Of a stretch of DNA of 64,000 nt, positions 2,880 through 60,345 are shown piece after piece. A model generated the notes under the pieces. It did no database searches. It was given only the letters and a program-made list of their open reading frames with translations, and was not told the DNA's origin. Positions within the stretch are counted from its first letter, which is position 1. The number at the start of each line of letters is the position of its first letter. The stretch lies in contig NC_019867.2 in NCBI RefSeq assembly GCF_002234675.1, positions 28,819,166 through 28,883,165 of the forward strand, given 5' to 3'. Source of the stretch: Oryzias latipes. Lineage: Eukaryota > Chordata > Actinopteri > Beloniformes > Adrianichthyidae. Made by a program: the position numbers and the translations under genes.

Positions 2880-4028
2880 TTACTTGAGCCAAGGGTGAAG
2901 CAGAATCTGTTCCAGACTGGGGCGCCTTCTTGGGTTTTGGATGAAGCATTGCTTCATAAAGTCTTTGCAGTCTTTGGAAAGGTTTTGCCTGAGTTGGAGC
3001 TTTTTCTCCATGAGTTTAGTTGAACTGAAGTTTTTGTTGTGGAGGCATTCAAACAGGACAATTCCCAGCTGCCACACTGTTGTGGGTCTAGCGCTGTACG
3101 TGTGTTCATACCACCATTCTGGAGGGGCGTGAATCTCTGTTCCATAAAAGGTGGTGTATTCTGAATGTGACTCTGTGAAGCAGCTGACTCCAAAGTCAAT
3201 TAAACGGACTTGTGGGGCGCCTGAACTCATGTCTATCAAGATGTTTTCCACTTTGATGTCTCGGTGGAAAATCTTTTTGTCCTGAAGGGAAATGGCTGCT
3301 TTTACTAGTTGTTTCAGGATCATCTTGGCTTCTTTTTCTCCAAACCAATCTCTACACTCTTGAACGTAAGTCTGAAGATCCACGGCTGGCATTGGTCTCT
3401 CCAAAACTAAGATCAGCTCATGTGGCAGCACATACCAGTCTAGCAAGGCGATTGGTGCTCTGCTGCCAGCGGAGTGTGATGTTCCGCTCCTGAGCTTCAG
3501 CATCACAGCCACTTCCCCAGATATCTCTCTTCCCTTTTCATCCACGTGTTTGCAGTACTGGTATTTATTGGGGACGTGTTTGATGGCAACGTCCAAATGA
3601 TCTGATTTGCGATAGCCAGCAAACACAGATCCGCAACCTCCTTCACCGAGTGGATGCAGTTCTACATATTTAGCCTCAAATCTAAGCTTTGGGTTGTCTT
3701 CTTCAGCTGGGTTTCCTCTGAATCTTTTGTCCAGCGGTTGTTCCAGATAGCTTGCTTTTCTCTTTCTGTTATGGTCAGGAATATAGAATGCAGATTCATC
3801 CTTTAGGGAAGGAAACTCAAGGTCCCTTCTTTTCTTTGTCGGTGTTGCAGATTCTTTGTCATACTCAGAGATTTTCCTTTTGGCGCATCTTTGCTTGAGT
3901 TTAGCTTCATCATGAAATTGAACAATGACTTTTAGTGGGTCACTGTGAAATGGAGGATTTTGATGTTTGCTTCCAAGGAAAGCGACTTTCCTAAGAAAAC
4001 TGCCCTGATTTTGAAACATGGTTTTCAA
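2880..4028 (-). CDS. PIM-like serine/threonine protein kinase, copy 1
   Basis: A 382-residue single-exon protein predicted to phosphorylate Ser/Thr. The first ~115 residues are an extension with two basic clusters (KKRR at 65-68, RKRK at 88-91) that could be nuclear-localisation signals. The kinase domain follows: Gly loop GEGGCGSV near 128-135, ATP-lysine K150 in VAIKHV, hinge ERPMP at 210-214, HRDIKVEN with catalytic D257, DFG at 278-280, and APPE near 301-304. The proline in an ERPxP hinge is a PIM-family hallmark. Vertebrate PIM1-3 genes are split by introns and this frame is not, so a retrogene origin is likely (inference). All catalytic residues are present. A TGACATCA/X-box module lies 130-320 bp upstream. 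The exact substrate is unknown; fish genomes carry large PIM-like families. Confidence 0.9.
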   Translation of the reverse strand: MKTMFQNQGSFLRKVAFLGSKHQNPPFHSDPLKVIVQFHDEAKLKQRCAKRKISEYDKESATPTKKRRDLEFPSLKDESAFYIPDHNRKRKASYLEQPLDKRFRGNPAEEDNPKLRFEAKYVELHPLGEGGCGSVFAGYRKSDHLDVAIKHVPNKYQYCKHVDEKGREISGEVAVMLKLRSGTSHSAGSRAPIALLDWYVLPHELILVLERPMPAVDLQTYVQECRDWFGEKEAKMILKQLVKAAISLQDKKIFHRDIKVENILIDMSSGAPQVRLIDFGVSCFTESHSEYTTFYGTEIHAPPEWWYEHTYSARPTTVWQLGIVLFECLHNKNFSSTKLMEKKLQLRQNLSKDCKDFMKQCFIQNPRRRPSLEQILLHPWLK

Positions 4029-4159
4029 AAAGCTTTAACACTGAGAAGAGAAGAATTTCAGTCTTTAAAAAGACTACGAAGGTCTTCCTCTTTCAGTGAA
4101 GGCTCAGGGGAGTCAACCTGACTTGGGTTAGCACGTGTATAAGTGGATTAGGTTGGCAG

Positions 4160-4344
4160 TGACATCATAAAGCAGTTGGTGACATCAGGTTGGCATTGTC
4201 ATCAATGATGTCATAAAGCAGTAGGTGACATCAATGTGTCTTGACTTGGGGCTATATGTCGTGTTGCCTAGCAACATGACTGTAAGGCATTATTAAAGGG
4301 TCTTTATGATGCCCTAGAATCATTATGTCATGTTGCTAGGCAAC
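4160..4344 (-). promoter_or_regulatory. X-box pair and CRE-like octamers upstream of kinase copy 1
   Basis: GTTGCCTAGCAAC at 4263-4275 and its exact reverse complement at 4332-4344 both match the RFX-factor X-box consensus (GTNRCC-N-RGYAAC). Each is followed, outward along its own strand, by ATGAC. Nearer the kinase start are four TGACATCA octamers, three direct (4160, 4180, 4226) and one inverted (4206), spaced 20, 26 and 20 bp. TGACATCA differs by one base from the CRE TGACGTCA. The motifs are seen directly; binding and promoter function are inferred. Confidence 0.55.
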
Positions 4345-4764
4345 AGAGCTTTTTTCTTAGGACAGAATAGGAAAGATACAACCAGTTACACAATTCATCG
4401 GTGTACCTTTAAACAAATTAACAAACCTAATTTACATAAGAAAAATTGAAAGTAATGAAGACACAATTTTATATGAGATTTGAATTATTACATATAAAAA
4501 TGTGTAATTACATGATGTTACAAAACCCTTTAACTAACATGAATAACAAACCCTAATATTATATGAAAACAATAAGTTTGCTCCTGGGGAAAAAGTGATT
4601 TTTTTTTAACTCCACCCAAATACCTGCAAATGAAAAAAAAACCTTCATGACATCATTAAATCTGCTAATGGGAACAGTTTTGAAATATGGTTTGCTTTTG
4701 AACTGGGAGTCATTAAAAAATGAAAAATGAAACTCTGCCATTGGGAATTATTAGTTATTTTTGC

Positions 4765-5643: not shown

Positions 5644-6313
5644 TCAGGAGTTTGTCTTCATCATTCTTTTGGCTGTTGGTGCAGCATCCGTACTTTTAGC
5701 ACTTCTCTTAAAGTTCTGCTGTCCATGCTGCTTTTTTCTTTCTGCCAGTATTGATTTGAGGTTCTTGACCCACTTTGTGTTCGTACTGTTCATGGTCGGG
5801 GGCGGTACGGGTTTTCTCTTGGGGTGTGGGGTGTTTGAAGGTCTCTTTGAAGAACTGGGTCCATCACATCTTCCTGCAGGATTTCCTTTGTGTTGTCTCT
5901 TTAGAACAAGCTTGTCTTGGTCTTTCAGCTTCTCGTAGGTCCAGAAGTCCTCCTTGTGTGATGAAGAACACTGAGTTGGAGGAGAGGCAGAGGAAGCAGT
6001 GGAGAAACGTCTTGGAGGAGAGTCTGAATCTGAGGAGAAACTCAAACCACCCGTAGGTGTTCTTTGGAACAGGGTTGATGTTTGGAGAGGATGGAGCATA
6101 GAGATACTTCTGAGGAGGAGAGTCTGAGTCTGAAGAGGAGCTCAGTCCAAACTCTGGAACCGGGCCAGTTGGTGTCTTTGGAACAGAGTTGATGGTCTCC
6201 TCTGGGTTCTCTGATGTTCCAGGAATTAGAATTCTTCTCACAACAAGTATTGGATCGTCAGGATCGCTTGGGTTGGGAAGCAAAAGAGATTTCCAAGTGT
6301 AGTGCTGCTCTGT
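5644..6313 (-). pseudogene. Ser/Pro-rich open exon, module A (unit 1), frameshifted
   Basis: The minus-strand exon follows an acceptor (ttatgttcag at about 6314). It begins TEQHYTWKSLLLPNPSDPDD and then runs into Ser/Pro-rich text including TPTGPVPEFGLSSSSDSDSPP. A related TPTGG...SFSSDSDSPP segment follows in a different frame, so an internal duplication is out of register with the first half. The second frame continues to a basic C terminus (KRKPVPPP, AERKKQHGQQNFKR) and stops at 5644. The same break is in unit 2. I do not recognise the family. It could be a separate gene or lost 5' exons of the kinase transcript. Confidence 0.4.
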
Positions 6314-6503
6314 CTGAACATAAAGAAAACATTTATTTCAGTATTTCACTAGAAATGAAAACCTGTTTGTTTAAAGATTATCTACTGAATTCTGATTAAA
6401 ACACAACAACAATTGACTAGGATGAATAAAAAAAGAATAAAATAGTTTAAATATTGATCTTCCTGAAAATTAATCAGAAGTTCGAAGAGTAAAGTTAATC
6501 TTT

Positions 6504-6926
6504 TTAGCTTTTGGTGCAGCTGAAAGACCTTGAGGAGAAAGAGAAGGAGCATTTATGGGAACGTACCAAGCTTGTACTGGAGCTCAGCTGAACATTTGAG
6601 GAGGTCTTTGGAGACCTGTGTGACGAACTGGGTCCATCACATCTTCCTACACGATGTCCTGTGAAGTCCTCCTTGTTTGATGAAGAACACTGAGTTGGAG
6701 GAGAGGCAGAGGAGGCAGTGGAGAGACTTCTTGGAGGAGAGTCTGAAGAGGAGCTCAGTCCAAACTCTGGAACTGGGCCAGTCGGTGTCTTTGGAACAGA
6801 GTTGATGGTCTCCTCTGGGTTCTCTGATGTTCCAGGAATTGGAATTCTTCTCACAACAAGTCTTGGATTGTCAGGATCGCTCGGGTTTGGAAGAAAAAGA
6901 GATTTCCAAGTGTAGCGCTGCTCTGT
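6504..6926 (-). CDS. Ser/Pro-rich open exon, module B (unit 1)
   Basis: Second copy of module A, starting after an identical acceptor context at about 6927. It stays open from TEQRYTWKSLFLPNPSDPDN through RRIPIPGTSENPEETINSVP and a Ser/Pro-rich tail (SLSTASSASPPTQCSSSNKE) to a stop at 6504, about 140 codons. It has no known domain, no membrane segment and no obvious start codon at the exon head, so it is probably an internal or terminal exon. It is unrecognised. Confidence 0.4.
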   Translation of the reverse strand, partial: TEQRYTWKSLFLPNPSDPDNPRLVVRRIPIPGTSENPEETINSVPKTPTGPVPEFGLSSSSDSPPRSLSTASSASPPTQCSSSNKEDFTGHRVGRCDGPSSSHRSPKTSSNVQLSSSTSLVRSHKCSFSFSSRSFSCTKS

Positions 6927-7489
6927 CTGAACATAAAGAATACATTTATTTCAGTATTTCTCTAAAATACTGAATACTGTAATAAAATACTGTATCTGAC
7001 ACTTGTGTCGGTGTGAGTGCACGTGTGCGTGCACGTGTGAGGTGAACTGGTGTTGCCAGCATTCCTCTGAGCACTGGGAGCTTGTTGGACTAGTGGTTGA
7101 CCAGACTTTCTCTATTTTGATGGATTTCTTTGAAGAAACTGAAAGGGGAAGTGATGAGGGAACCACTGAACTCAGTCTCCCAGAGTTCTTTGCTGCAGTG
7201 AGCCTGTAGATTTTGTGCTGTTTGGAAACTTCTGCAGCATCTGCTACAGTAAGTTCACCTGTATTTTTGTGGAGTGGTTGCAGGTTTAATGTGGTTTTAT
7301 GATGAATAATTCTCAGTCAGAACATATGGTAGACTATGATTTTACTAGTTTTTGTTCATGGAGGATTCAGGACCTTTTTCTGTATGATTTTATTTCCAGT
7401 TCCTCCTCCTCTTCATTCATTTTCACCTTTTATCAGATTAAAAAATGTCTGAATCTTTTCTTGTAACCCTTTAAAACCCAAATTCAGGA

Positions 7490-20371: not shown

Positions 20372-21520
20372 TTACTTGAGCCAAGGGTGAAGCAGAATCT
20401 GTTCCAGACTGGGGCGCCTTCTTGGGTTTTGGATGAAGCATTGCTTCATAAAGTCTTTGCAGTCTTTGGAAAGGTTTTGCCTGAGTTGGAGCTTTTTCTC
20501 CATGAGTTTAGTTGAATTGAAACGTTTGTTGTGGAGGCATTCAAACAGGACAATTCCCAGCTGCCACACTGTTGTGGGTCTAGCGCTGTACGTGTGTTCA
20601 TACCACCATTCTGGAGGGGCGTGAATCTCTGTTCCATAAAAGGTGGTGTATTCTGAATGTGACTCTGTGAAGCAGCTGACTCCAAAGTCAATTAAACGGA
20701 CTTGTGGGGCGCCTGAACTCATGTCTATCAAGATGTTTTCCACTTTGATGTCTCGGTGGAAAATCTTTTTGTCCTGAAGGGAAATGGCTGCTTTTATTAG
20801 TTGTTTCAGGATCATCTTGGCTTCTTTTTCTCCAAACCAATCTCTACACTCTTGAACGTAAGTCTGAAGATCCACGGCTGGCATTGGTCTCTCCAAAACT
20901 AAGATCAGCTCATGTGGCAGCACATACCAGTCTAGCAAGGCGATTGGTGCTCTGCTGCCAGCGGAGTGTGATGTTCCGCTCCTGAGCTTCAGCATCACAG
21001 CCACTTCCCCAGATATCTCTCTTCCCTTTTCATCCACGTGTTTGCAGTACTGGTATTTATTGGGGACGTGTTTGATGGCAACGTCCAAATGATCTGATTT
21101 GCGATAGCCAGCAAACACAGATCCGCAACCTCCTTCACCGAGTGGATGCAGTTCTACATATTTAGCCTCAAATCTAAGCTTTGGGTTGTCTTCTTCTGCT
21201 GGGTTTCCTCTGAATCTTTTGTCCAGCGGTTGTTCCAGATAGCTTGCTTTTCTCTTTCTGTTATGGTCAGGAATATAGAATGCAGATTCATCCTTTAGGG
21301 AAGGAAACTCAAGGTCCCTTCTTTTCTTTGTCGGTGTTGCAGATTCTTTGTCATAGTCAGAGATTTTCCTTTTGCCGCATCTTTGCTTGACTTTAGCATC
21401 ATCTTGAAATTGAACAATGACTTTTAGTGGGTCACTGTGAAATGGAGGATTTTGATGTTTGCTTCCAAGGAAAGCGACTTTCCTAAGAAAACTGCCCTGA
21501 TTTTGAAACATGGTTTTCAA
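20372..21520 (-). CDS. PIM-like serine/threonine protein kinase, copy 2
   Basis: Intact 382-residue paralogue of copy 1 with the same layout: basic N-terminal extension, Gly loop, K150, ERPMP hinge, HRD D257, DFG 278-280. By direct comparison it differs from copy 1 at eight residues. Five are in the N-terminal extension (H39Q, E41D, L44V, A49G, E55D), plus V242I and two in HNKRFNSTK versus HNKNFSSTK. None touches a catalytic residue. Changes cluster outside the kinase core, which fits a protein still under constraint, though recent duplication alone could also explain the similarity. It has the same upstream X-box/CRE-like block at 21652-21836. Confidence 0.9.
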   Translation of the reverse strand: MKTMFQNQGSFLRKVAFLGSKHQNPPFHSDPLKVIVQFQDDAKVKQRCGKRKISDYDKESATPTKKRRDLEFPSLKDESAFYIPDHNRKRKASYLEQPLDKRFRGNPAEEDNPKLRFEAKYVELHPLGEGGCGSVFAGYRKSDHLDVAIKHVPNKYQYCKHVDEKGREISGEVAVMLKLRSGTSHSAGSRAPIALLDWYVLPHELILVLERPMPAVDLQTYVQECRDWFGEKEAKMILKQLIKAAISLQDKKIFHRDIKVENILIDMSSGAPQVRLIDFGVSCFTESHSEYTTFYGTEIHAPPEWWYEHTYSARPTTVWQLGIVLFECLHNKRFNSTKLMEKKLQLRQNLSKDCKDFMKQCFIQNPRRRPSLEQILLHPWLK

Positions 21521-21651: not shown

Positions 21652-21836
21652 TGACATCATAAAGCAGTTGGTGACATCAGGTTGGCATTGTCATCAATGA
21701 TGTCATAAAGCAGTAGGTGACATCAATGTGTCTTGACTTGGGGCTATATGTCGTGTTGCCTAGCAACATGACTGTAAGGCATTATTAAAGGGTCTTTATG
21801 ATGCCCTAGAATCATTATGTCATGTTGCTAGGCAAC
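21652..21836 (-). promoter_or_regulatory. X-box pair and CRE-like octamers upstream of kinase copy 2
   Basis: X-boxes at 21755-21767 and 21824-21836 in inverted orientation, with the four TGACATCA-type octamers unchanged from unit 1. Confidence 0.55.
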
Positions 21837-23135: not shown

Positions 23136-23805
23136 TCAGGAGTTTGTCTTCATCATTCTTTTGGCTGTTGGTGCAGCATCCGTACTTTTAGCACACCTCT
23201 TAAAGTTCTGCTGTCCATGCTGCTTTTTTCTTTCTGCCAGTATTGATTTGAGGTTCTTGACCCACTTTGTGTTCGTACTGTTCATGGTCGGGGGCGGTAC
23301 GGGTTTTCTCTTGGGGTGTGGGATGTTTGAAGGTCTCTTTGAAGAACTGGGTCCATCACATCTTCCTGCAGGATTTCCTTTGTGCTGTCTCTTTAGAACA
23401 AGCTTGTCTTGGTCTTTCAGCTTCTCGTAGGTCCAGAAGTCCTCCTTGTGTGATGAAGAACACTGAGTTGGAGGAGAGGCGGAGGAAGCAGTGGAGAAAC
23501 GTCTTGGAGGAGTGTCTGAATCTGAGGAGAAACTCAAACCACCCGTAGGTGTTCTTTGGAACAGGGTTGATGTTTGGAGAGGATGGAGCATAGAGATACT
23601 TCTGAGGAGGAGAGTCTGAGTCTGAAGAGGAGCTCAGTCCAAACTCTGGAACCGGGCCAGTTGGTGTCTTTGGAACAGAGTTGATGGTCTCCTCTGGGTT
23701 CTCTGATGTTCCAGGAATTAGAATTCTTCTCACAACAAGTATTGGATCGTCAGGATCGCTCGGGTTGGGAAGCAAAAGAGATTTCCAAGTGTAGTGCTGC
23801 TCTGT
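23136..23805 (-). pseudogene. Ser/Pro-rich open exon, module A (unit 2), frameshifted
   Basis: Same structure as 5644-6313, including the shift of frame between the two TPTG-type segments, so the break predates the duplication of the unit or has spread by conversion. A few codons differ (for example SDSDTPPRR). Confidence 0.4.
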
Positions 23806-23995
23806 CTGAACATAAAGAAAACATTTATTTCAGTATTTCACTAGAAATGAAAACCTGTTTGTTTAAAGATTATCTACTGAATTCTGATTAAAACACAACA
23901 ACAATTGACTAGGATGAATAAAAAAAGAATAAAATAGTTTAAATATTGATCTTCCTGAAAATTAATCAGAAGTTCGAAGAGTAAAGTTAATCTTT

Positions 23996-24418
23996 TTAGC
24001 TTTTGGTGCAGCTGAAAGACCTTGAGGAGAAAGAGAAGGAGCATTTATGGGAACGTACCAAGCTTGTACTGGAGCTCAGCTGAACATTTGAGGAGGTCTT
24101 TGGAGACCTGCGTGACGAACTGGGTCCATCACATCTTCCTACACGATGTCCTGTGAAGTCCTCCTTGTTTGATGAAGAACACTGAGTTGGAGGAGAGGCA
24201 GAGGAGGCAGTGGAGAGACTTCTTGGAGGAGAGTCTGAAGAGGAGCTCAGTCCAAACTCTGGAACTGGGCCAGTCGGTGTCTTTGGAACAGAGTTGATGG
24301 TCTCCTCTGGGTTCTCTGATGTTCCAGGAATTGGAATTCTTCTCACAACAAGTCTTGGATTGTCAGGATCGCTCGGGTTTGGAAGAAAAAGAGATTTCCA
24401 AGTGTAGCGCTGCTCTGT
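23996..24418 (-). CDS. Ser/Pro-rich open exon, module B (unit 2)
   Basis: Near-identical to 6504-6926, open from the acceptor to the stop. One visible change is GPSSSRRSPKTSS in place of GPSSSHRSPKTSS. Family unrecognised. Confidence 0.4.
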   Translation of the reverse strand, partial: TEQRYTWKSLFLPNPSDPDNPRLVVRRIPIPGTSENPEETINSVPKTPTGPVPEFGLSSSSDSPPRSLSTASSASPPTQCSSSNKEDFTGHRVGRCDGPSSSRRSPKTSSNVQLSSSTSLVRSHKCSFSFSSRSFSCTKS

Positions 24419-27400
24419 CTGAACATAAAGAATACATTTATTTCAGTATTTCTCTAAAATACTGAATACTGTAATAAAATACTGTATCTGACACTTGTGT
24501 CGGTGTGAGTGCACGTGTGCGTGCACGTGTGAGGTGAACTGGTGTTGCCAGCATTCCTCTGAGCACTGGGAGCTTGTTGGACTAGTGGTTGACCAGACTT
24601 TCTCTATTTTGATGGATTTCTTTGAAGAAACTGAAAGGGGAAGTGATGAGGGAACCACTGAACTCAGTCTCCCAGAGTTCTTTGCTGCAGTGAGCCTGTG
24701 GATTTTGTGCTGTTTGGAAACTTCTGCAGCATCTGCTACAGTAAGTTCACCTGTATTTTTGTGGAGTGGTTGCAGGTTTAATGTGGTTTTATGATGAATA
24801 ATTCTCAGTCAGAACATATGGTAGACTATGATTTTACTAGTTTTTGTTCATGGAGGATTCAGGACCTTTTTCTGTATGATTTTATTTCCAGTTCCTCCTC
24901 CTCTTCATTCATTTTCACCTTTTATCAGATTAAAAAATGTCTGAATCTTTTCTTGTAACCCTTTAAAACCCAAATTCAGGAGAGGAGGAGAAGGTTTAGT
25001 TTCTCCTGTTGGGAGGGTGCAGATTCACACCCTGGATTGTGTAACAAACACAAAGTTGATGAGAACCTATCTGGGAAATTGTTTATCTGAGTTGTGCAGT
25101 GATTCCACAGAAGAGGGTGGAATAGTGATGAAACCTTGGGGTTGGGTCCAAAAACATGCTTCAGGGTTAATTAGTGATTCTAAATTGTCTCTGCTTGTAA
25201 ACATGAGTGTTGTTGTTTGTGTGGCCCTGCAATGGATTAGTGAACTATCCAAAGTGAACTTCGGCTTCAGCCAACAGTGGCTGGGATAGGCTCCAGCAAC
25301 CCTGTGACCCTAAAAGAGAATAAGTGTGTTTGGACAATGGATGGATAGACTGGGGGGTGAGGTGGGGGGACTTAGATAAACTCTGTTTTACTGTAGTGAA
25401 ACAACATTTTTATTCATTTTAGATTTAACTTGAGTTTACAGAGGAAAAAACAGAAATAAAAATCTCAAAGTACTTTAGGTTCTTTTTGTTGTTTAGTTCA
25501 AATGTAGGTTACGTTGGTTAAATGGATCTGCAAAATGATTTAATGTCGATTTAATGTGACCTGACCTTTCTACCCTAGAACTTTACACAGTAACCAGTCA
25601 TGGTGAGGCAGCTTACCAAGATTAGAAGCAAACAAAAAGCAGCTTTAAATTAAAATGTAAGATTTTTAAATCTAACTTTTTGTCACAGTCTTGTGATCAT
25701 TTTAGTATTTTGTCACTTACACCTGAACTCTCTTCATTCTCTGATCTGATCTCAGTAGGTTGTCCTGTCATCTACTGATTACCGTTGGTGTTTTCATTGC
25801 TAGAACTTCCTGTCAAATCAGGCTAGCTAAAGTTCTGCTCTTCTGGACTCCACATCTGAAGAAGATGACAACTCCATCCAGCTGAGATGGAGACTTCTTA
25901 ACCAAAGAACCAACAGTAGGACAACGTCTTGGTCCTCAGAATAAAGGGTTGAGTCTGACTTTCACTTCTTCCTACCCTCTTCTGTGGAAGAACTGTGTGG
26001 AAATAGACCTCTCCTTTGTTATCTCACAGCCCAGGTGACACATTTTATGAGCTTGACACTTTCTCAGGTTTTCTCTTATCAACTTTACCTTTATTGATCA
26101 ATCCAGAGTGTGACTTGTCATCCTCCCACATGGATGAACCAAACCCTTTTCCTGCCAGCAGCAGCCTTACTCAGGTTTCCACAGAATTACCAGCCGGGGC
26201 CCCAAGGCTGGACTTTGCTGCAGCGGTTGTGATGAAGATGAGCTGAAGAGTTGAACTTCAGGCAAAAGATTATTAGAGGTAATGAAACTTCTGTAACTGT
26301 AACCCAGAACCTCTCCCAGTTCTTTATGTCTTCTGCACATAGATATATTGAGGTCTCCCTTCAAAACGTCCATCTACTGACCCCTTTCACCACATGACCA
26401 GCTGCACTGAATGATCATTCAGTGAACTCTGGAGGCTGAGCAGGTATGGCAAGCCATGAAGACCATAAAAGCCCCTAGATCCTGACATATATGCATGGAT
26501 GCAAACGTCCCTGTGTATAGTATGCTTTGTGCAGGAGTCTGCGTTTCCTTTTAGTTTTGTTTTGACAGTTTCTATATCAATACTTTGGATGCAGTGCGTT
26601 GAAGCAAACAATCTAAGAAGAAAGTGACAAGCTGCAAATTAGGTAAGCAGCTATGGTGAATGCAGACCCTAATACTAAATCTAGGTTTTGATTCCTGTTT
26701 GGACCAGGACTGATACGAGGATGAGCCCTCATGTGGCAGTGACAGGTGTGTGGTTTTGTACAACCAGCTGTCAGGAACTGGTGGTGTTGGACCCAAAATG
26801 CCTCCTGCACCAGGCTTGGTGGCAGAACCTTAAACATTTCTCAAATAAACTGAATCCTGAGCAAAACTCTGGAGAAGCTGACAAAGCAGATGACCTGACA
26901 ATGACAAACTGAAAACCAGACACTCAAACACACTGAGGACCTGGAGTGACTGACAGTAGACTAATCAGAACAGAACATGACCAACAATGTCACTGAAACA
27001 CTAAAGTAGAGTGGACAACCATCACAGTACCCCTCTCCAAAAGGAAACATTCCAGATAATCTTTCAAACTACAACATTTGGACGGAGAAGACCTTATGGA
27101 ACAAAAGAGCAAAAACAGAAAAAGTTTGACTCAGACAAATTCTAAAGTATTTTCATACATTCTAAAGTATTTTCATACATTCTTGTCAAAAGAACTGTGA
27201 GACTGATGGCGAGGTTTCACGTTTTCCCGACTATATTTCTTCTCGTCAGCAGAGGGTTGACGTTGGTGCTTCCCTGCAGCCTAATGGAAGCTGGTTCTGT
27301 AGAGAAGACGGTTTGGTTTCTCCTTTTGGGAGGCTGCAGATTGAAACACTGGATTGAGTAACAAACACAAAGTTGATGAGAACATATCTGGGAAATTATC

Positions 27401-36121: not shown

Positions 36122-37270
36122 TTACTTGAGCCAAGGGTGAAGCAGAATCTGTTCCAGACTGGGGCGCCTTCTTGGGTTTTGGATGAAGCATTGCTTCATA
36201 AAGTCTTTGCAGTCTTTGGAAAGGTTTTGCCTGAGTTGGAGCTTTTTCTCCATGAGTTTAGTTGAATTGAAACGTTTGTTGTGGAGGCATTCAAACAGGA
36301 CAATTCCCAGCTGCCACACTGTTGTGGGTCTAGCGCTGTACGTGTGTTCATACCACCATTCTGGAGGGGCGTGAATCTCTGTTCCATAAAAGGTGGTGTA
36401 TTCTGAATGTGACTCTGTGAAGCAGCTGACTCCAAAGTCAATTAAACGGACTTGTGGGGCGCCTGAACTCATGTCTATCAAGATGTTTTCCACTTTGATG
36501 TCTCGGTGGAAAATCTTTTTGTCCTGAAGGGAAATGGCTGCTTTTATTAGTTGTTTCAGGATCATCTTGGCTTCTTTTTCTCCAAAGGAATTTCTACTCT
36601 CTTGAACGTAAGTCTGAAGATCCACGGCTGGCATTGGTCTCTCCAAAACTAAGATCAGCTCATGTGGCAGCACATACCAGTCTATCAAGGCGATTGGTGC
36701 TCTGCTGCCAGCGGAGTGTGATGTTCCGCTCCTGAGTTTCAGCATCACAGCTACTTCCCCAGATATCTCTCTTCCCTTTTCATCCACGTGTTTGCAGTAC
36801 TGGTATTTATTGGGGACGTGTTTGATGGCAACGTCCAAATGATCTGATTTGCGATAGCCAGCAAACACAGATCCGCAACCTCCTTCACCGAGTGGATGCA
36901 GTTCTACATATTTAGCCTCAAATCTAAGCTTTGGGTTGTCTTCTTCAGCTGGGTTTCCTCTGAATCTTTTGTCCAGCGGTTGTTCCAGATAGCTTGCTTT
37001 TCTCTTTCTGTTATGGTCAGGAATATAGAATGCAGATTCATCCTTTAGGGAAGGAAACTCAAGGTCCCTTCTTTTCTTTGTCGGTGTTGCAGATTCTTTG
37101 TCATAGTCAGAGATTTTCCTTTTGGCGCATCTTTGCTTGACTTTAGCATCATCTTGAAATTGAACAATGACTTTTAGTGGGTCACTGTGAAATGGAGGAT
37201 TTTGATGTTTGCTTCCAAGGAAAGCGACTTTCCTAAGAAAACTGCCCTGATTTTGAAACATGGTTTTCAA
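36122..37270 (-). CDS. PIM-like serine/threonine protein kinase, copy 3
   Basis: Intact 382-residue paralogue. It differs from copy 2 at five residues (49 is Ala as in copy 1, L196I, C225S, D227N, W228S) and from copy 1 at eleven. The 225-228 cluster (ESRNSFGE versus ECRDWFGE) lies just after the ERPMP hinge, in the region of helix D where substrate and inhibitor contacts are often made in kinases. All catalytic motifs are intact. It has the same upstream X-box/CRE-like block and is the last complete gene before the array breakpoint at about 39363. Confidence 0.9.
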   Translation of the reverse strand: MKTMFQNQGSFLRKVAFLGSKHQNPPFHSDPLKVIVQFQDDAKVKQRCAKRKISDYDKESATPTKKRRDLEFPSLKDESAFYIPDHNRKRKASYLEQPLDKRFRGNPAEEDNPKLRFEAKYVELHPLGEGGCGSVFAGYRKSDHLDVAIKHVPNKYQYCKHVDEKGREISGEVAVMLKLRSGTSHSAGSRAPIALIDWYVLPHELILVLERPMPAVDLQTYVQESRNSFGEKEAKMILKQLIKAAISLQDKKIFHRDIKVENILIDMSSGAPQVRLIDFGVSCFTESHSEYTTFYGTEIHAPPEWWYEHTYSARPTTVWQLGIVLFECLHNKRFNSTKLMEKKLQLRQNLSKDCKDFMKQCFIQNPRRRPSLEQILLHPWLK

Positions 37271-37401: not shown

Positions 37402-37586
37402 TGACATCATAAAGCAGTTGGTGACATCAGGTTGGCATAGTCATCAATGATGTCATAAAGCAGTAGGTGACATCAATGTGTCTTGACTTGGGGCTATATG
37501 TCGTGTTGCCTAGCAACATGACTGTAAGGCATTATTAAAGGGCCTTTATGATGCCCTAGAATCATTATGTCATGTTGCTAGGCAAC
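37402..37586 (-). promoter_or_regulatory. X-box pair and CRE-like octamers upstream of kinase copy 3
   Basis: X-boxes at 37505-37517 and 37574-37586, with all four TGACATCA-type octamers retained. Confidence 0.55.
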
Positions 37587-45570: not shown

Positions 45571-46796
45571 AGCTTTTTATTTTACTTATTTTATTTTTAC
45601 TTTTTTACTTTTTATTACACTAATGTTTTAAACTTGATTCACTATGTATTATCATCTCAAAATTATATCACATTTGAAGAAAGCACAACCGAGACTATTG
45701 TCTCGTAACATTCCTTCAGCATCCTCCCCTTTCATCTTTGTGTGTGCTGGTGTATGTGCTCTGGGAAATGTCTGTGATAACCTCAGAGAGATCTGACACT
45801 TGAAGCTCTCTGACCTTCGAACATCTAGCCTGCAACAACCTGTGGGTGGGTTTTTCACACCACTGTCCATCGGGTGATCTTCTGAATATGCAAATGCAGG
45901 GTTTATATACCAAACCCATTTTCCAGTTTCCTTTGTTCGGAATTTGATGCAGCAACCCTGTTCATCTGTCTGTAACCCTTCGTACAAATTTGTGCCTCTT
46001 GTTTGGAGTGAAACTTCACTGAAGCTAAGTTTTGTCTCTGAGTCATTATTCATTCATTTCTGTGTGCAGGAAACTGATGGAACGAACCAACCTAATTTAC
46101 CTATCTCACAGTCCTGTTTAGAATCTCCAGTTTCCGCACAAGTATGATTTCTTGATTGTGGTTGGTTAATTACATTTTCATATAAAGAGGCACAACTAGA
46201 CGAGACAAACCAACTACAGCAAGCTAACTGGGAAAAAAGTGTGAAAAATTGACAAATCAACAACAATTAATTCAATTCAATTTAACGTTACTAAAATAGT
46301 TAAAGGAATGTCAGGCCGAATGGTTTTCCCTCACACATTTCCACCTCACTAAATGTCTCTTTGTCAAAAGTTTGGACATCCCTGCACTAAAGGAAACATG
46401 GTGTAAAGATTTCAAAGCAGCTTTCTTGTTTCTGTGACAAGCATTCATTTGAAAGGTTTCTGCAACAGTAAAAGAAAACATGTTTGCAGAAGTTGTGACA
46501 TAACATGCAAACGAAGGACTAAAGTCAGTTTTCATGGTTGTAAACGTTATTGTGTTTGTGCAGAAAAACATCTATGCTGTTGATGAAATGCTGTTTCCAG
46601 TTATTAGTATTTGAGATGAGGAAATCTGATTTTCTGGAGATTCGTTTGTTTTCCAGCTGCTCAAACATCAGAAGTGAACACAGCATCATAAAGTAGACAG
46701 AAGAGTAATGCCTTAGTCCAAAATCAGCGTCTACTGAGTCGTGTTGACGAGCTTCTTTCTTTCTTCCCACAGACTAACATTGAATGCAGAATTGTG

Positions 46797-46847
46797 ATGC
46801 TTCAGTTTGACCTCCACCTGATGCCTGAGGCTCCTTCTCACTGCTGA
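46797..46847 (+). promoter_or_regulatory. Upstream ORF in RNF copy A leader
   Basis: A 16-codon frame (MLQFDLHLMPEAPSHC) in the 5' leader, after an acceptor at 46772 (TTCTTCCCACAG) and before the main ATG at 46902. The same frame, with one residue changed, is kept in copy B. Confidence 0.45.
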
Positions 46848-46901
46848 AAGTTTGGCACCATCTTCACTTGTTTGTCCCCTCAGAGTTCCAGCTCCTCCCT
46901 C

Positions 46902-48319
46902 ATGAATCCTTACTCGGAAACAAACCAGGACTTTTCTCGAAGTGAGGACAAAGATGCTCTGAGCTCAATTTGCTGTTCAATTCCTGATTCCAACCCGTCG
47001 GTGCCCACTTCTCCTCTCCCCCAAATCTACACGGGTGAATCTTTTCCCCCAGCTTCACAGCGTCTGTCAGTCTCAGACCTGACCTGGCTGGACCAAAATG
47101 TCCAACCTCCGAGTTCATCTTTGCCCCTTCCAGCATTCACTCCTGCATCTACTCCTTCATGGGGTCTGACCCAGGACTCCCGGTCTCCTCCCATAGCAAA
47201 CCCTTACTTCTCTTTTGACGACAACCCGCCCCACAAAGTCTCTGTGGATGTCCAGACTCCAGACCTGCACCCCTCTCCTCTCCCGTCTCAGTTCTCCGAG
47301 GAGTGTCCGGATCTGGAGTGCTCGATCTGCTTCAGCCAGTTCAACAACGTCTTCCGTTGCCCAAAGATGCTCCACTGCAAGCACACTTTCTGCCTGGAGT
47401 GCCTGGCACGCATCAACGTCAAGTCTGCAGAGCCCAATGCGATTCAGTGCCCGCTGTGCCGCGGACTCACGACCCTGCCAACCCTGGGCCTCCCAAAACT
47501 GGCCACGGACTCGGACGTGCTGTCCTACCTGCCAGCCGCCATGCAGAGGGTTTACAGCATCCGCTTCATCCGGAACAAAGGCAAGCTGCAGGTCAAGAGG
47601 TGAGATTCAACACTCTGGTGGGATCTGTAAATCTGCAAGCAGACTTCTTTTGCCTTTTCAAAGTAGTCTTGATAATGCTGTACAGAAGTTTTAAAAATGT
47701 TCAGGATTTTTTAATTATTTCATTCTAAAACTGATGTAAGATCAGTTCAAATGCATCATAGCTGCTGGGTTGTAAGGGATCAGTCCAAAAAAAAAAACCT
47801 GGGCTGATGCTATAAACATTTTTTTTTTAAATTGTTTTTATGTCCTCCAGCTTTTATTTACTTTAACTCCAAGATGAACTAAAACAAGTCTGGACCAAAA
47901 CAGGAAAAGAAATTGACAGAAGAGTAGAAAGAGGCCTGAGGCTTATTTTATTCTACTTTACCATTAAAAGTAAAACTGCAAATAAACCGGAAATGAACAA
48001 ATTACATTTTTTTATTAATTTTATTGCCCTGTCAGTTTTTTTCTTGTATGAACTGACGGCTGTTCTCCTGTTCAGGGCAACTGAAAGATCCCGGCAGAGG
48101 AGTCGCGCTTCGGTGATGTCTCTGGGCCCAACCAACCGCACGCTGAACGTAGGACTTCCCAGCTCAACCACGCAGGGCGGCGAGGCCCACAACATGGATG
48201 GAATGGTGCTGTGGATGACGGGACGGCCGGCGTGTCGAGCCTTCCTTATGAGCTGTGTGGTGATCACTGTCCTTGTTCTCACAGCCGCTATCATTTACCT
48301 TTTGTCCTACAAAAAGTAA
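46902..48319 (+). CDS. RING-finger, C-terminally anchored E3 ligase (RNF183/RNF223-like), copy A
   Basis: Two coding exons, 46902-47599 (within an exon starting about 46773) and 48076-48319, encode 313 aa. Residues 1-135 are Ser/Pro-rich and disordered. A C3HC4 RING follows with C140, C143, C159, H161, C164, C167, C183 and C186. A single membrane segment (about 289-309, FLMSCVVITVLVLTAAIIYL) ends at YKK. This matches the small RING proteins anchored by a C-terminal helix (RNF183, RNF186, RNF223 and relatives), which ubiquitinate substrates at ER/lysosomal membranes. ATG 46902 is the first in frame after the acceptor. Polyadenylation signals lie near 49408 and 49478. Which family member it is remains uncertain. 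Confidence 0.9.
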
Positions 48320-58000: not shown

Positions 58001-59171
58001 TATGCAACAGGTTTACAGAACCTGAAGCTTTCAAATGGAAGGCTGCAGTTGGTCGTATTTTTGTGCATCAGGAGTCTGTAAAGTTAAATGTTTAATTGGC
58101 TCAAAAGCTTTTCAAAGAGTGGACTCTGAAGCGGAATGATTGATGAGCTTTGGGTGTTTGAAGCGTTTGTTGGTGAAACTGTCAAATTTCACCAAACTGT
58201 TCCTGCAGCAGAGCAGAATTTGCATCATATTTTCCTGCATAAATATAACGGCTGAGCCACTTCATCTCCATCAGTTGTTTCTTTTTTAAGGCTGGAAAAA
58301 CAATCTTTAAGGTGAAAATATTGAAGTTGATCAGCATGGTTGTTCTGTAAATGTAAGTGTGGTTTTCTCCTTTTCAAAGCGCTTTAGAAATTGCCTAGAT
58401 TCTGTTTACTGAACAGTTTGATGTGAAATTAAATTTAAACTTACTTTTATAAGTATTCATTGTGTGTGGGTTCGGTGGGAAAGGTGGGCTAGGTTTTTAT
58501 TATAATGTTTATGTTTTTTTTGTTTTAAATGTTAAAGGGCTTTGACTTGCGCAAAGCATGAGAAACACTTTTTTTATAAATAAAATTTGATTTGATTCAG
58601 AACCTAGCATGTTCAAAATGCTCCTAATCAATCTGGTTTAATCTCAAATATCCAGAATTTATTCTGATCCTTCAAAGTGGTTATCATTGATGGTTCACAA
58701 GGTTTCCACTGGTATTTTTGAAGCATTTTTGAAATTTGTCATAAGTTTGGACATCCCTGCACTAAAGGAAACATGGTGTAAATTTTTCAAAGCAGCTTTC
58801 TTGTTTCTGTGACATGCATTCATTTGAAAGGTTTTTGTAACAGTAAAAGAAAACATGTTTGCAGAAGTTGTGACATAACATACAAACGAAGGCTTAATGT
58901 CAGTTTTCATGGTTGCAGACCTTATTGTGTTTATGCCAAAAAACATCTATGCTGTTGATGAAATGCTGTTTCCAGTTATTAGTATTTGAGATGAGGAAAT
59001 GGGATTTTCTGGAGATTCATTTGTTTTCCAGCTGCTCAAACATCAGAAGTGAACACAGCATCATAAAGTAGACAGAAAAGTGATGCCTTAGTCCAAAATC
59101 AGCTTCTACTGAGTCGTGTTGATGAGCTTCTTTCTTTCCTCCCACAGACTAACATTGAATGCAGAATTGTG

Positions 59172-59222
59172 ATGCTTCAGTTTGACCTCTACCTGATGCC
59201 TGAGGCTCCTTCTCACTGCTGA
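59172..59222 (+). promoter_or_regulatory. Upstream ORF in RNF copy B leader
   Basis: A 16-codon frame MLQFDLYLMPEAPSHC after the acceptor at 59147, one residue different from copy A. Confidence 0.4.
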
Positions 59223-59276
59223 AAGTTTGGCACCATCTTCACTTGTTTGTCCCCTCAGAGTTCCAGCTCCTCCCTC

Positions 59277-60345
59277 ATGTTCGAAATAGATGATGATTAT
59301 GATGATGACTGTTTTTCACCTGAGTACGATGATGATCTGAACACAGATTTCTATTCATCTTCTCCTTATCAACAGTATGAGCCCCAGTATCAGCCCCAGT
59401 ATCAGCCCCAGTATCAGCCCCAGTATGATCCCCAGTATGATCCCCAGTATGAGCCCTCGCCGGACCAAAATGTCCAACCTCCGAGTTCATCTTTGCCCCT
59501 TCCAGGATTCACTCCTATACAATTGGATCCGAACCAGGACTCATACTCTTCTCAGGACGACCCGCCCGGCTCTGATGATGGCCAGACTTCAGAACAGGCC
59601 ACGGACTCTGATGCACCGACCAAGCGGCCGGCCGGCAGGCGGAGGAACCCCAACAACCGCGTCATCCAAAACAAAGGCAAACCGCAGGTCAAGAGGTGAG
59701 GCTTTTCAAAGTGGTCTTGATAATACTGACCAGAAGTTTTTGCCATTTCCGACTTTTACTTCTCCTTTATGCTAACATTTTTTGTGTTATTTAACTCTAA
59801 AACTGATGTAAGATCAGTTCAAATGTATAATGACACCCGGGTTGTTTTTGTCCTCCAGCTTTTGTTTACTTTAATTCCAAGATGCACTAAAACAAGAGTC
59901 TGGACCAAAACAGGAAAATAAATGATCAGGAAGTAAAAAGAGGCCTACGGCTTATTTTAGTTTTCTACTTTAGAATCAAAAGTAGAACTGCAAATAAACC
60001 AGAAATTAACAAAAAAAAATTTTTTGTTAGTTTTATTAGTTTTGTTGCCCTGTCTTTTTTTTTAAATGTATGATTCTTCTGAACTGACGGCTCGTTCTCC
60101 TGTTCAGGGCCGCTGAACGTTCCTGGCAGCAGGGTCCCACTTATGTGACTGCTATTGGCCCAGCCTACCACACACAGAACGTAGGAATTCCCAGCTCAAC
60201 GACGCAAGCTGGCGAGGCACATAGCACGGACAGAATAGTGCTGTGGCTGACGCGCCGCCCAGCAGGACGAGCCTTCCTCATGAGCTGTGTGGTGATCACT
60301 GTCATTGTTGTCACACTTGCTATAATTTTTGCTACCAAAGGTTAG
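59277..60345 (+). CDS. RING-less paralogue of the RNF copy A protein, copy B
   Basis: Two exons, 59277-59695 and 60108-60345, in the same phase-2 junction as copy A, encode 218 aa. The N terminus is acidic (MFEIDDDYDDDCFSPEYDDD), followed by seven QYxP repeats and then DQNVQPPSSSLPLPGFTP shared with copy A. The entire RING (copy A residues 136-190) is absent. A linker NKGKPQVKR, the second exon and a membrane segment (about 196-215) are shared. No stop or frameshift occurs, so it may encode a membrane protein without ligase activity. It lacks the upstream CpG-rich first exon of copy A, so its promoter is unknown. Confidence 0.7.
59373..59456 (+). repeat. Seven 12-bp coding repeats (QYEP/QYQP/QYDP)
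   Basis: CAGTATNANCCC units in the order E, Q, Q, Q, D, D, E at the variable codon. They lie inside RNF copy B where copy A has unrelated sequence. Confidence 0.95.

Follow-up and report, generated by a model that had tools for sequence, protein, structure and literature searches.

RFX factors bind X-boxes with the palindromic consensus GTNRCC-N(0-3)-RGYAAC, and full palindromic X-boxes near the gene are a feature of ciliary promoters. In fish, genes of the first zygotic wave tend to be short, intron-poor and multicopy. SXY modules place a CREB-type X2 site directly after X1 and an S box about 16 bp from X. In mouse testis, according to the excerpted text of PMC4498915, RFX2 sites cluster near transcription start sites (TSS), and the genes under RFX2 and those under CREM form largely separate sets, which counts against a simple pairing of RFX2 with CREM; the same excerpt reports that RFX5 and RFX7 do not dimerise. 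In SXY modules, the Y box is located 20-22 bp from the X box (excerpt of PMC4374748). Variants of the CRE are also functional: TGATGTCA is a lower-affinity CRE (excerpt of PMC1796609), and c-JUN acts on its reverse complement, TGACATCA, in the c-JUN promoter itself (excerpt of PMC7319343). In flounder gonads, expanded pim-like genes are male-biased and overlap piRNA clusters, and they have been proposed to be pseudogenes that serve as a source of piRNAs (excerpt of PMC12562241).

Here, we report the analysis of a 64,000-nucleotide stretch of the medaka genome (C9:28819166-28883165, hereafter the window), in which X-box palindromes and CRE-like octamers are found upstream of intronless PIM-like kinase genes, together with searches of 734 Mb of genomic sequence on 25 contigs. 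The palindromes and octamers look like real promoter elements on comparative sequence grounds, and the octamer extends to several unrelated families of multicopy single-frame genes.

Putative promoter segments of the kinase units in the window

The window contains three tandem units, offset by 17.5 and 15.8 kb and 97.5-98.9% identical, with a fourth just beyond its edge at C9:28805712. Each of the three carries one intronless minus-strand ORF (2880-4019, 20372-21511 and 36122-37261 in units 1, 2 and 3, respectively), which in unit 1 encodes 379 aa from the ATG. The window ORF encodes a protein kinase (Pfam Pkinase, 1.4e-43) whose nearest relative of solved structure is PIM-2 (7.5e-50), and a kinase domain closest to PIM with both HRD and DFG present places it in the PIM family.

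The two 13-bp palindromes GTTGCCTAGCAAC that had been predicted upstream of the unit 1 kinase are present, in opposite orientation with 56 bp between them and with ATGAC after each in its own sense. The gene-proximal copy (4263-4275, plus strand), found by motif scan, also occurs in diverged copies of the segment; the gene-distal one occupies 4332-4344 on the minus strand. Together with the ATGAC flanks, the pair forms a 19-bp perfect inverted repeat spanning 4262-4345 (arms 4262-4280 and 4327-4345). A bZIP-like half TGACATAA (4323-4330, minus strand) is located 1 bp from the distal X-box. The four predicted TGACATCA octamers are likewise in place, at 4160-4167, 4180-4187 and 4226-4233 on the plus strand and 4206-4213 on the minus strand, and their near-regular spacing reflects a degenerate tandem duplication of 46 bp whose two copies carry all four (4157-4233, repeat family D1, 87%). 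A possible TATA-like core, CTTATACACGTGC (4131-4143, minus strand), picked by eye at a place with no TATAWA match, aligns, also by eye, opposite CTTATAGAGGTGC in the C9 copies and GATATATAGAGGTAC in the C1 copies. All these elements belong to a promoter block (4109-4403, minus strand) with homologous stretches on C9, C18 and C21.

A chance cluster of sites is rejected by window shuffles and by the genome counts given below. With up to two mismatches allowed, six X-box matches were found in the window, all of them exact, against a mean of 1.10 in shuffled windows, and TGACATCA occurs 22 times where 4.11 are expected; neither count was reached in any of 100 shuffles. The six X-boxes include those of unit 2 (21755-21767, plus; 21824-21836, minus) and unit 3 (37505-37517, plus; 37574-37586, minus), which are accompanied by four octamers each, in 21652-21725 (starts at 21652, 21672, 21698 and 21718) and 37402-37475 (37402, 37422, 37448 and 37468).

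Compared with unit 1, the 185-bp segments at 21652-21836 and 37402-37586 show 0 and 2 differences, respectively, none in the named sites. These sites are thus unchanged in the three units, as the original prediction had it, and this identity is weak evidence of conservation because the units are recent duplicates: the chance that the approximately 68 site bases would stay unchanged by luck is roughly 0.18-0.47. With so few changes expected, conservation across the window units was dropped as an argument, and the real support for the sites comes from older, diverged paralogues elsewhere in the genome.

The window contains other recurring sequences as well. At their 5' ends, an ORF with a RING finger (46848-47603) and one rich in repeats (59223-59699) have 545 bp in common (46360-46904 and 58735-59279; 95% identity), beyond which the ORFs diverge. 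Several ORFs of 148-165 aa, all on the minus strand, are repeated between the units along with shared segments (5644-6950 and 23136-24442); two of these were scanned against Pfam, with no match.

X-box palindromes in the genome

The kinase search identified 11 family loci on C9, nine on C1 and one on C21, small fragments such as C9:29697527 and C22:19505870 being excluded from these 21. The C1 paralogues are 58-65% identical to the window kinases at the protein level, and HRD and DFG are both present in all 14 intact frames tested. These 14 frames were used to estimate dN/dS, with pairs that include w1 or C1_19632 reported. Relative to w1, five C9 copies have ratios of 0.28-0.48 and six C1 copies have ratios of 0.40-0.45; one C1 pair gives 0.76, and the values for w1-w2 (1.18) and w1-w3 (0.94) are near 1, on too few changes to tell. 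Judged by their sequences, the intact kinase copies look constrained and functional.

At one of the 21 loci, the sequence 5' of the kinase is unreadable. Among the other 20, 19 loci, on three chromosomes, carry the RFX-type palindrome GTTGCNNNGCAAC no more than 400 bp upstream of the match start; the exception, C9:29671752, is a kinase with stop codons. The promoters of these 19 loci combine one to three full X-boxes with one to four TGACATCA octamers within 400 bp, and the number, spacing and orientation of the X-boxes differ between copies. On C1, the X-boxes lie in 61-bp tandem units, most with a TGACATCA, and one to three X-boxes are intact in each promoter. The window copies fit the RFX consensus exactly, and most of the C1 variants fit as well, matching GTTGCCNRGCAAC with centres CAA, CTG and CAG; a few units have an arm broken by one base (GTTGCCTGGCAGC in two promoters, GTTTCCTAGCAAC in one).

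Two loci have unusual arrangements. At C1:19692358 (region 19690858-19694955), the single X-box is the centre of a 47-bp palindrome that has bZIP-like sequence to either side. On C9 (29842551-29846072), a kinase locus with a frameshift has two intact X-boxes about 1.2 kb apart, as if by an insertion; the distal X-box of this split block (C9:29844051) is displaced by the insertion.

Genome-wide, the single 13-mer occurs 273 times, so that it is the pairs and composites, rather than lone X-boxes, that distinguish these genes. The 18-mer consisting of the X-box and ATGAC is found 27 times and is confined to C9, C18 and C21. Pairs of GTTGCNNNGCAAC with a gap of 27-57 bp number 20 in 734 Mb (six at four C1 kinase loci, nine on C9, one on C21 and four on C18), and all of them belong to two families, the PIM-like kinases (16 pairs) and an unrelated intronless coiled-coil family (four pairs). 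The composite of an X-box, A and TGAYRTMA occurs 19 times, of which 18 are in kinase promoter blocks, including one in the displaced half of the split block; the last is in an orphan partial block of the kinase-family type at C9:30654672. Patterns read backward as a control gave no 18-mers, no pairs and no composites. Because this control contains CpG and is therefore rarer than a fair one, the argument is carried by the restriction to two gene families and not by the zero.

A general PIM-gene promoter is rejected. The exact 13-mer, taken at 100 of its 273 places, does not come closer than 70 kb to any of 20 other kinase hits (contigs C1, C3 and C5-C9), a hand-picked sample of canonical PIM genes, multi-exon PIM-like genes and a few weaker hits. 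The X-box thus goes with the intronless subfamily rather than with PIM genes generally, so that absence of the pair from other PIM-like genes, which the original prediction had named as evidence against itself, was found in part. The assignment to kinases alone, on the other hand, was too narrow, given that four coiled-coil genes carry the pair and TGACATCA arrays mark further families.

The palindromes are preserved while the surrounding bases of the block drift, as judged from aligned sequences. Eight of 16 aligned sequences were compared, after removal of near-identical copies, another two from C18, C9_29671 (which has no block) and C9_29844 (whose block is split). Among the eight diverged blocks, 23 of 26 palindrome columns are invariant, including 13 of 13 in the distal X-box, vs 41 of 179 in the rest of the block (Fisher test, 1.2e-10), and when C21 is excluded the counts become 26 of 26 vs 47 of 179 (7e-14), both p-values being indicative because relatedness and column dependence are ignored. 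The C21 exceptions change the centre TAG to CTA and retain a full X-box. The ATGAC flanks are less constant (three of five and four of five columns). Overall, the X-boxes are near the gene, in terms of the ORF or match start rather than the TSS, and are better kept than their neighbours.

Octamer arrays of multicopy single-frame families

The four block copies on C18 are 78-79% identical and lie upstream of, and in the same sense as, single-frame ORFs of 334-361 aa that are coiled-coil by appearance; two of these ORFs, compared with Pfam, gave nothing above the cut-off. At least 13 genes, on C18, C1 and C2, make up this family. X-boxes are present in the four C18 members only, and 12 of the 13 have four to eight copies of TGACATCA within 700 bp upstream (L074 has none), which makes the octamer the wider feature. 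In a scan of 15 of the 33 readable promoters, L074 not among them, TATAWA is plain on C1 close to the start (-71 to -91) and is found neither in the C9 kinase copies nor in most coiled-coil promoters.

On C18, C21 and at two places on C9, the far end of the block (approximately 4403) is followed by sequence that matches the unit from position 1237-1243 onward, an impression being that the short frames of this fragment resemble the tail of a LINE reverse transcriptase. On these three contigs the fragment, which corresponds to 1237-2082 of the window, starts from nearly the same point. The junctions suggest that the block and the LINE-like fragment moved together; such joint movement, by duplication or retroposition, is a possible route by which the block came to be shared between families. 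The C1 kinase promoters were not matched when the block was used as a DNA query.

Over 600 bp of each of the 33 readable promoters of the two families, kinase and coiled-coil, no other 8-mer is as frequent as TGACATCA, with 127 copies in 32 of the 33; the best one-off variant has 21 copies and the canonical CRE, TGACGTCA, one, a preference that holds within this set. The sites are thus TG/CA variants and not canonical CREs. Decay of canonical CREs is rejected as the whole story, as exact copies of TGACATCA are repeated, with TGACGTCA almost missing beside them; methylation-driven loss of the CpG form may have contributed. Of 60 spacings between adjacent octamers, measured in 16 promoters (many of them related copies), 18 are exactly 10 or 20 bp, which hints at octamers on one face of the helix.

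Arrays of the form TGATGTCA-TGACATCA-TGATGTCA occur 149 times genome-wide vs four in the control, overlapping hits being counted, and many of these arrays are themselves repetitive. The 100 array hits on C1-C15 merge into 55 clusters. Four array loci were chosen by hand with no knowledge of the genes beside them, and at all four an ORF of 306 aa or more begins 104-185 bp from the array. None of the four encoded proteins reaches a Pfam cut-off; three of them, used as queries, identified multicopy single-frame families on C7, C12, C13, C14 and elsewhere. Altogether, 32 of the 55 listed clusters lie on the 5' side of an ORF from one of five families, at a distance of 94-345 bp (four clusters for the kinases, two for coiled-coil family A, 11 for B, eight for C and seven for D), a fraction that partly follows from the hand choice because families B, C and D were found via the picked loci; the neighbours of the remaining 23 were not seen. 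When both sides of the 55 listed clusters were inspected, none was solely on the 3' side of such an ORF within 2 kb. The array clusters at family ORFs are on C1, C7, C9, C12, C13 and C14. The strict three-site array is absent from some family members. BLASTP (E < 0.1) detected no similarity among the five families, save between two members of family C.

Candidate mechanism, alternatives and relation to known systems

We consider it rather probable that the segment is the proximal promoter of intronless multicopy PIM-like kinases, at which a dimeric RFX factor and a bZIP factor act on the adjacent core. Dimeric RFX factors of the RFX1-4 type, most likely RFX2, would bind the palindromes; a bZIP factor of the CREB/ATF/CREM or Jun/ATF type would bind the octamers as well as the half-site adjoining some of the X-boxes; and the two would jointly fire the core promoter. 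A dimerising RFX1-4-type factor is favoured over RFX5 because both half-sites are kept. RFX-type control, one part of the original prediction, is supported by the X-boxes at 19 of 20 loci and by their retention in diverged blocks. With less assurance, the male germ line may be the site of expression, where the octamer array might serve as a promoter code shared by a number of multicopy intronless genes; the male germ line is ranked first because RFX2 sites lie near gene starts in the mouse (excerpt of PMC4498915) and pim-like genes are male-biased in flounder (excerpt of PMC12562241). Several observations count against this mechanism: some C1 X-boxes are broken by one base, the number, spacing and orientation of X-boxes vary, TATAWA is inconsistent, and dN/dS is near 1 for w1-w2 and w1-w3 and 0.76 for one C1 pair.

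A wider reading, which is plausible and which we hold tentatively, is that TGACATCA arrays, many with 10- or 20-bp spacing, are a dedicated promoter code of medaka for multicopy single-frame genes, read by one bZIP factor in one cell type, with the RFX pair as a portable add-on. This code would cover the PIM-like kinases and at least four mutually unlike families, with the germ line as the likeliest cell type and the RFX pair in two of the families.

The alternative that survives best places the same code in the oocyte and early zygote, where a maternal bZIP-type factor would fire multicopy intronless genes during the short first cycles, with RFX added. By analogy, an early-embryo programme would suit multicopy intronless genes equally well: first-wave zygotic genes of fish have this character, and octamer arrays mark several multicopy single-frame families. 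We nonetheless regard it as unlikely, given the male bias of pim-like genes in flounder gonads (excerpt of PMC12562241); no study of such a programme was found in the literature searched.

It is quite unlikely that the segment is a promoter of multiciliated cells or sensory cilia, driven by RFX2/3 and FOXJ1, with the octamers secondary. Although near-gene full palindromic X-boxes are also of the ciliary type, TGACATCA is the more general element, present without X-boxes in related promoters, and lineage-specific multicopy intronless genes would be unlike the conserved ciliary set.

The inverted repeat could also be what remains of a small transposon or of a hairpin, with the octamers forming a minisatellite, both having spread through duplication and having no function. 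The 19-bp perfect inverted repeat, the location of the window octamers within a tandem duplication, the same LINE-like fragment beside the block on several chromosomes and the repetitive nature of numerous octamer arrays genome-wide all fit this account. Yet the C1 palindromes have another geometry, in promoters that the block DNA does not match, the palindrome columns are far more constrained than their neighbours, inspection of the block ends by eye revealed no target-site duplication, and 32 array clusters are 5' of family ORFs with none solely 3' within 2 kb. We judge such a relic improbable.

An SXY enhancer, at which RFX5/RFXAP/RFXANK, CREB and NF-Y would recruit CIITA or NLRC5 for interferon-type immune control, is highly improbable: the 19 composites with a bZIP half 1 bp from the X-box, all in blocks of the kinase family, speak for it, but CCAAT/ATTGG occurs 15-26 bp from only one of 45 X-boxes (the single copy C9_30533), against the 20-22 bp rule (excerpt of PMC4374748), both palindrome halves are conserved, and the X-boxes are arranged as inverted pairs or 61-bp tandem units. 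The Y-box test thus rejects the SXY module, and the immune-type part of the original prediction falls with it. What stands of the proposed likeness to X1-X2 is that, in many copies, one X-box has a bZIP-like half at a distance of 1 bp; this half is missing at most gene-proximal X-boxes and in C18.

The RFX and bZIP promoter that we favour bears on an open question, how multicopy intronless genes acquire and retain expression, which the octamer makes testable: an octamer common to unrelated families predicts that all of them depend on a single factor and share a single expression window, and its sharp definition allows new family members to be found from DNA alone. It also provides a lead on the site of action of the expanded PIM-like kinases of fish, which have been argued to be pseudogenes (excerpt of PMC12562241). 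The literature searched, with most subscription journals outside its scope, holds no report of the signature of paired palindromes and octamers; within it, searches for medaka pim genes and for TGACATCA with ATF2 returned nothing, those for pim-like expansion returned off-topic papers only, and those on medaka intronless testis kinases and medaka zygotic activation returned nothing useful.

The elements themselves are of known kinds; the arrangement common to unrelated intronless families appears to be new. The SXY module of MHC class I and II genes shares with some copies an X-box with a bZIP-like half 1 bp off, whereas here a Y box near the SXY distance is missing at all but one of 45 X-boxes, the palindrome is full and the X-boxes are repeated. 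Multicopy PIM-like kinases in a teleost are common to medaka and flounder, compared here by description and not by orthology; the excerpt of PMC12562241 describes male bias, overlap with piRNA clusters and a pseudogene proposal, whereas the intact medaka copies look constrained. As in promoters with TG/CA-variant CREs (TGATGTCA/TGACATCA), the exact variant octamer is close to the gene start, but up to eight octamers occur in one promoter, at 10- and 20-bp spacings and with TGACGTCA almost missing. The X-boxes themselves resemble those of RFX promoters (RFX1-4 dimers; RFX2 spermiogenesis targets), which likewise have full GTTGCC-N-RGCAAC sites, one to three per promoter and within 400 bp upstream; in medaka, the predicted sites form inverted pairs or 61-bp tandem units, are joined by TGACATCA and belong to multicopy intronless families.
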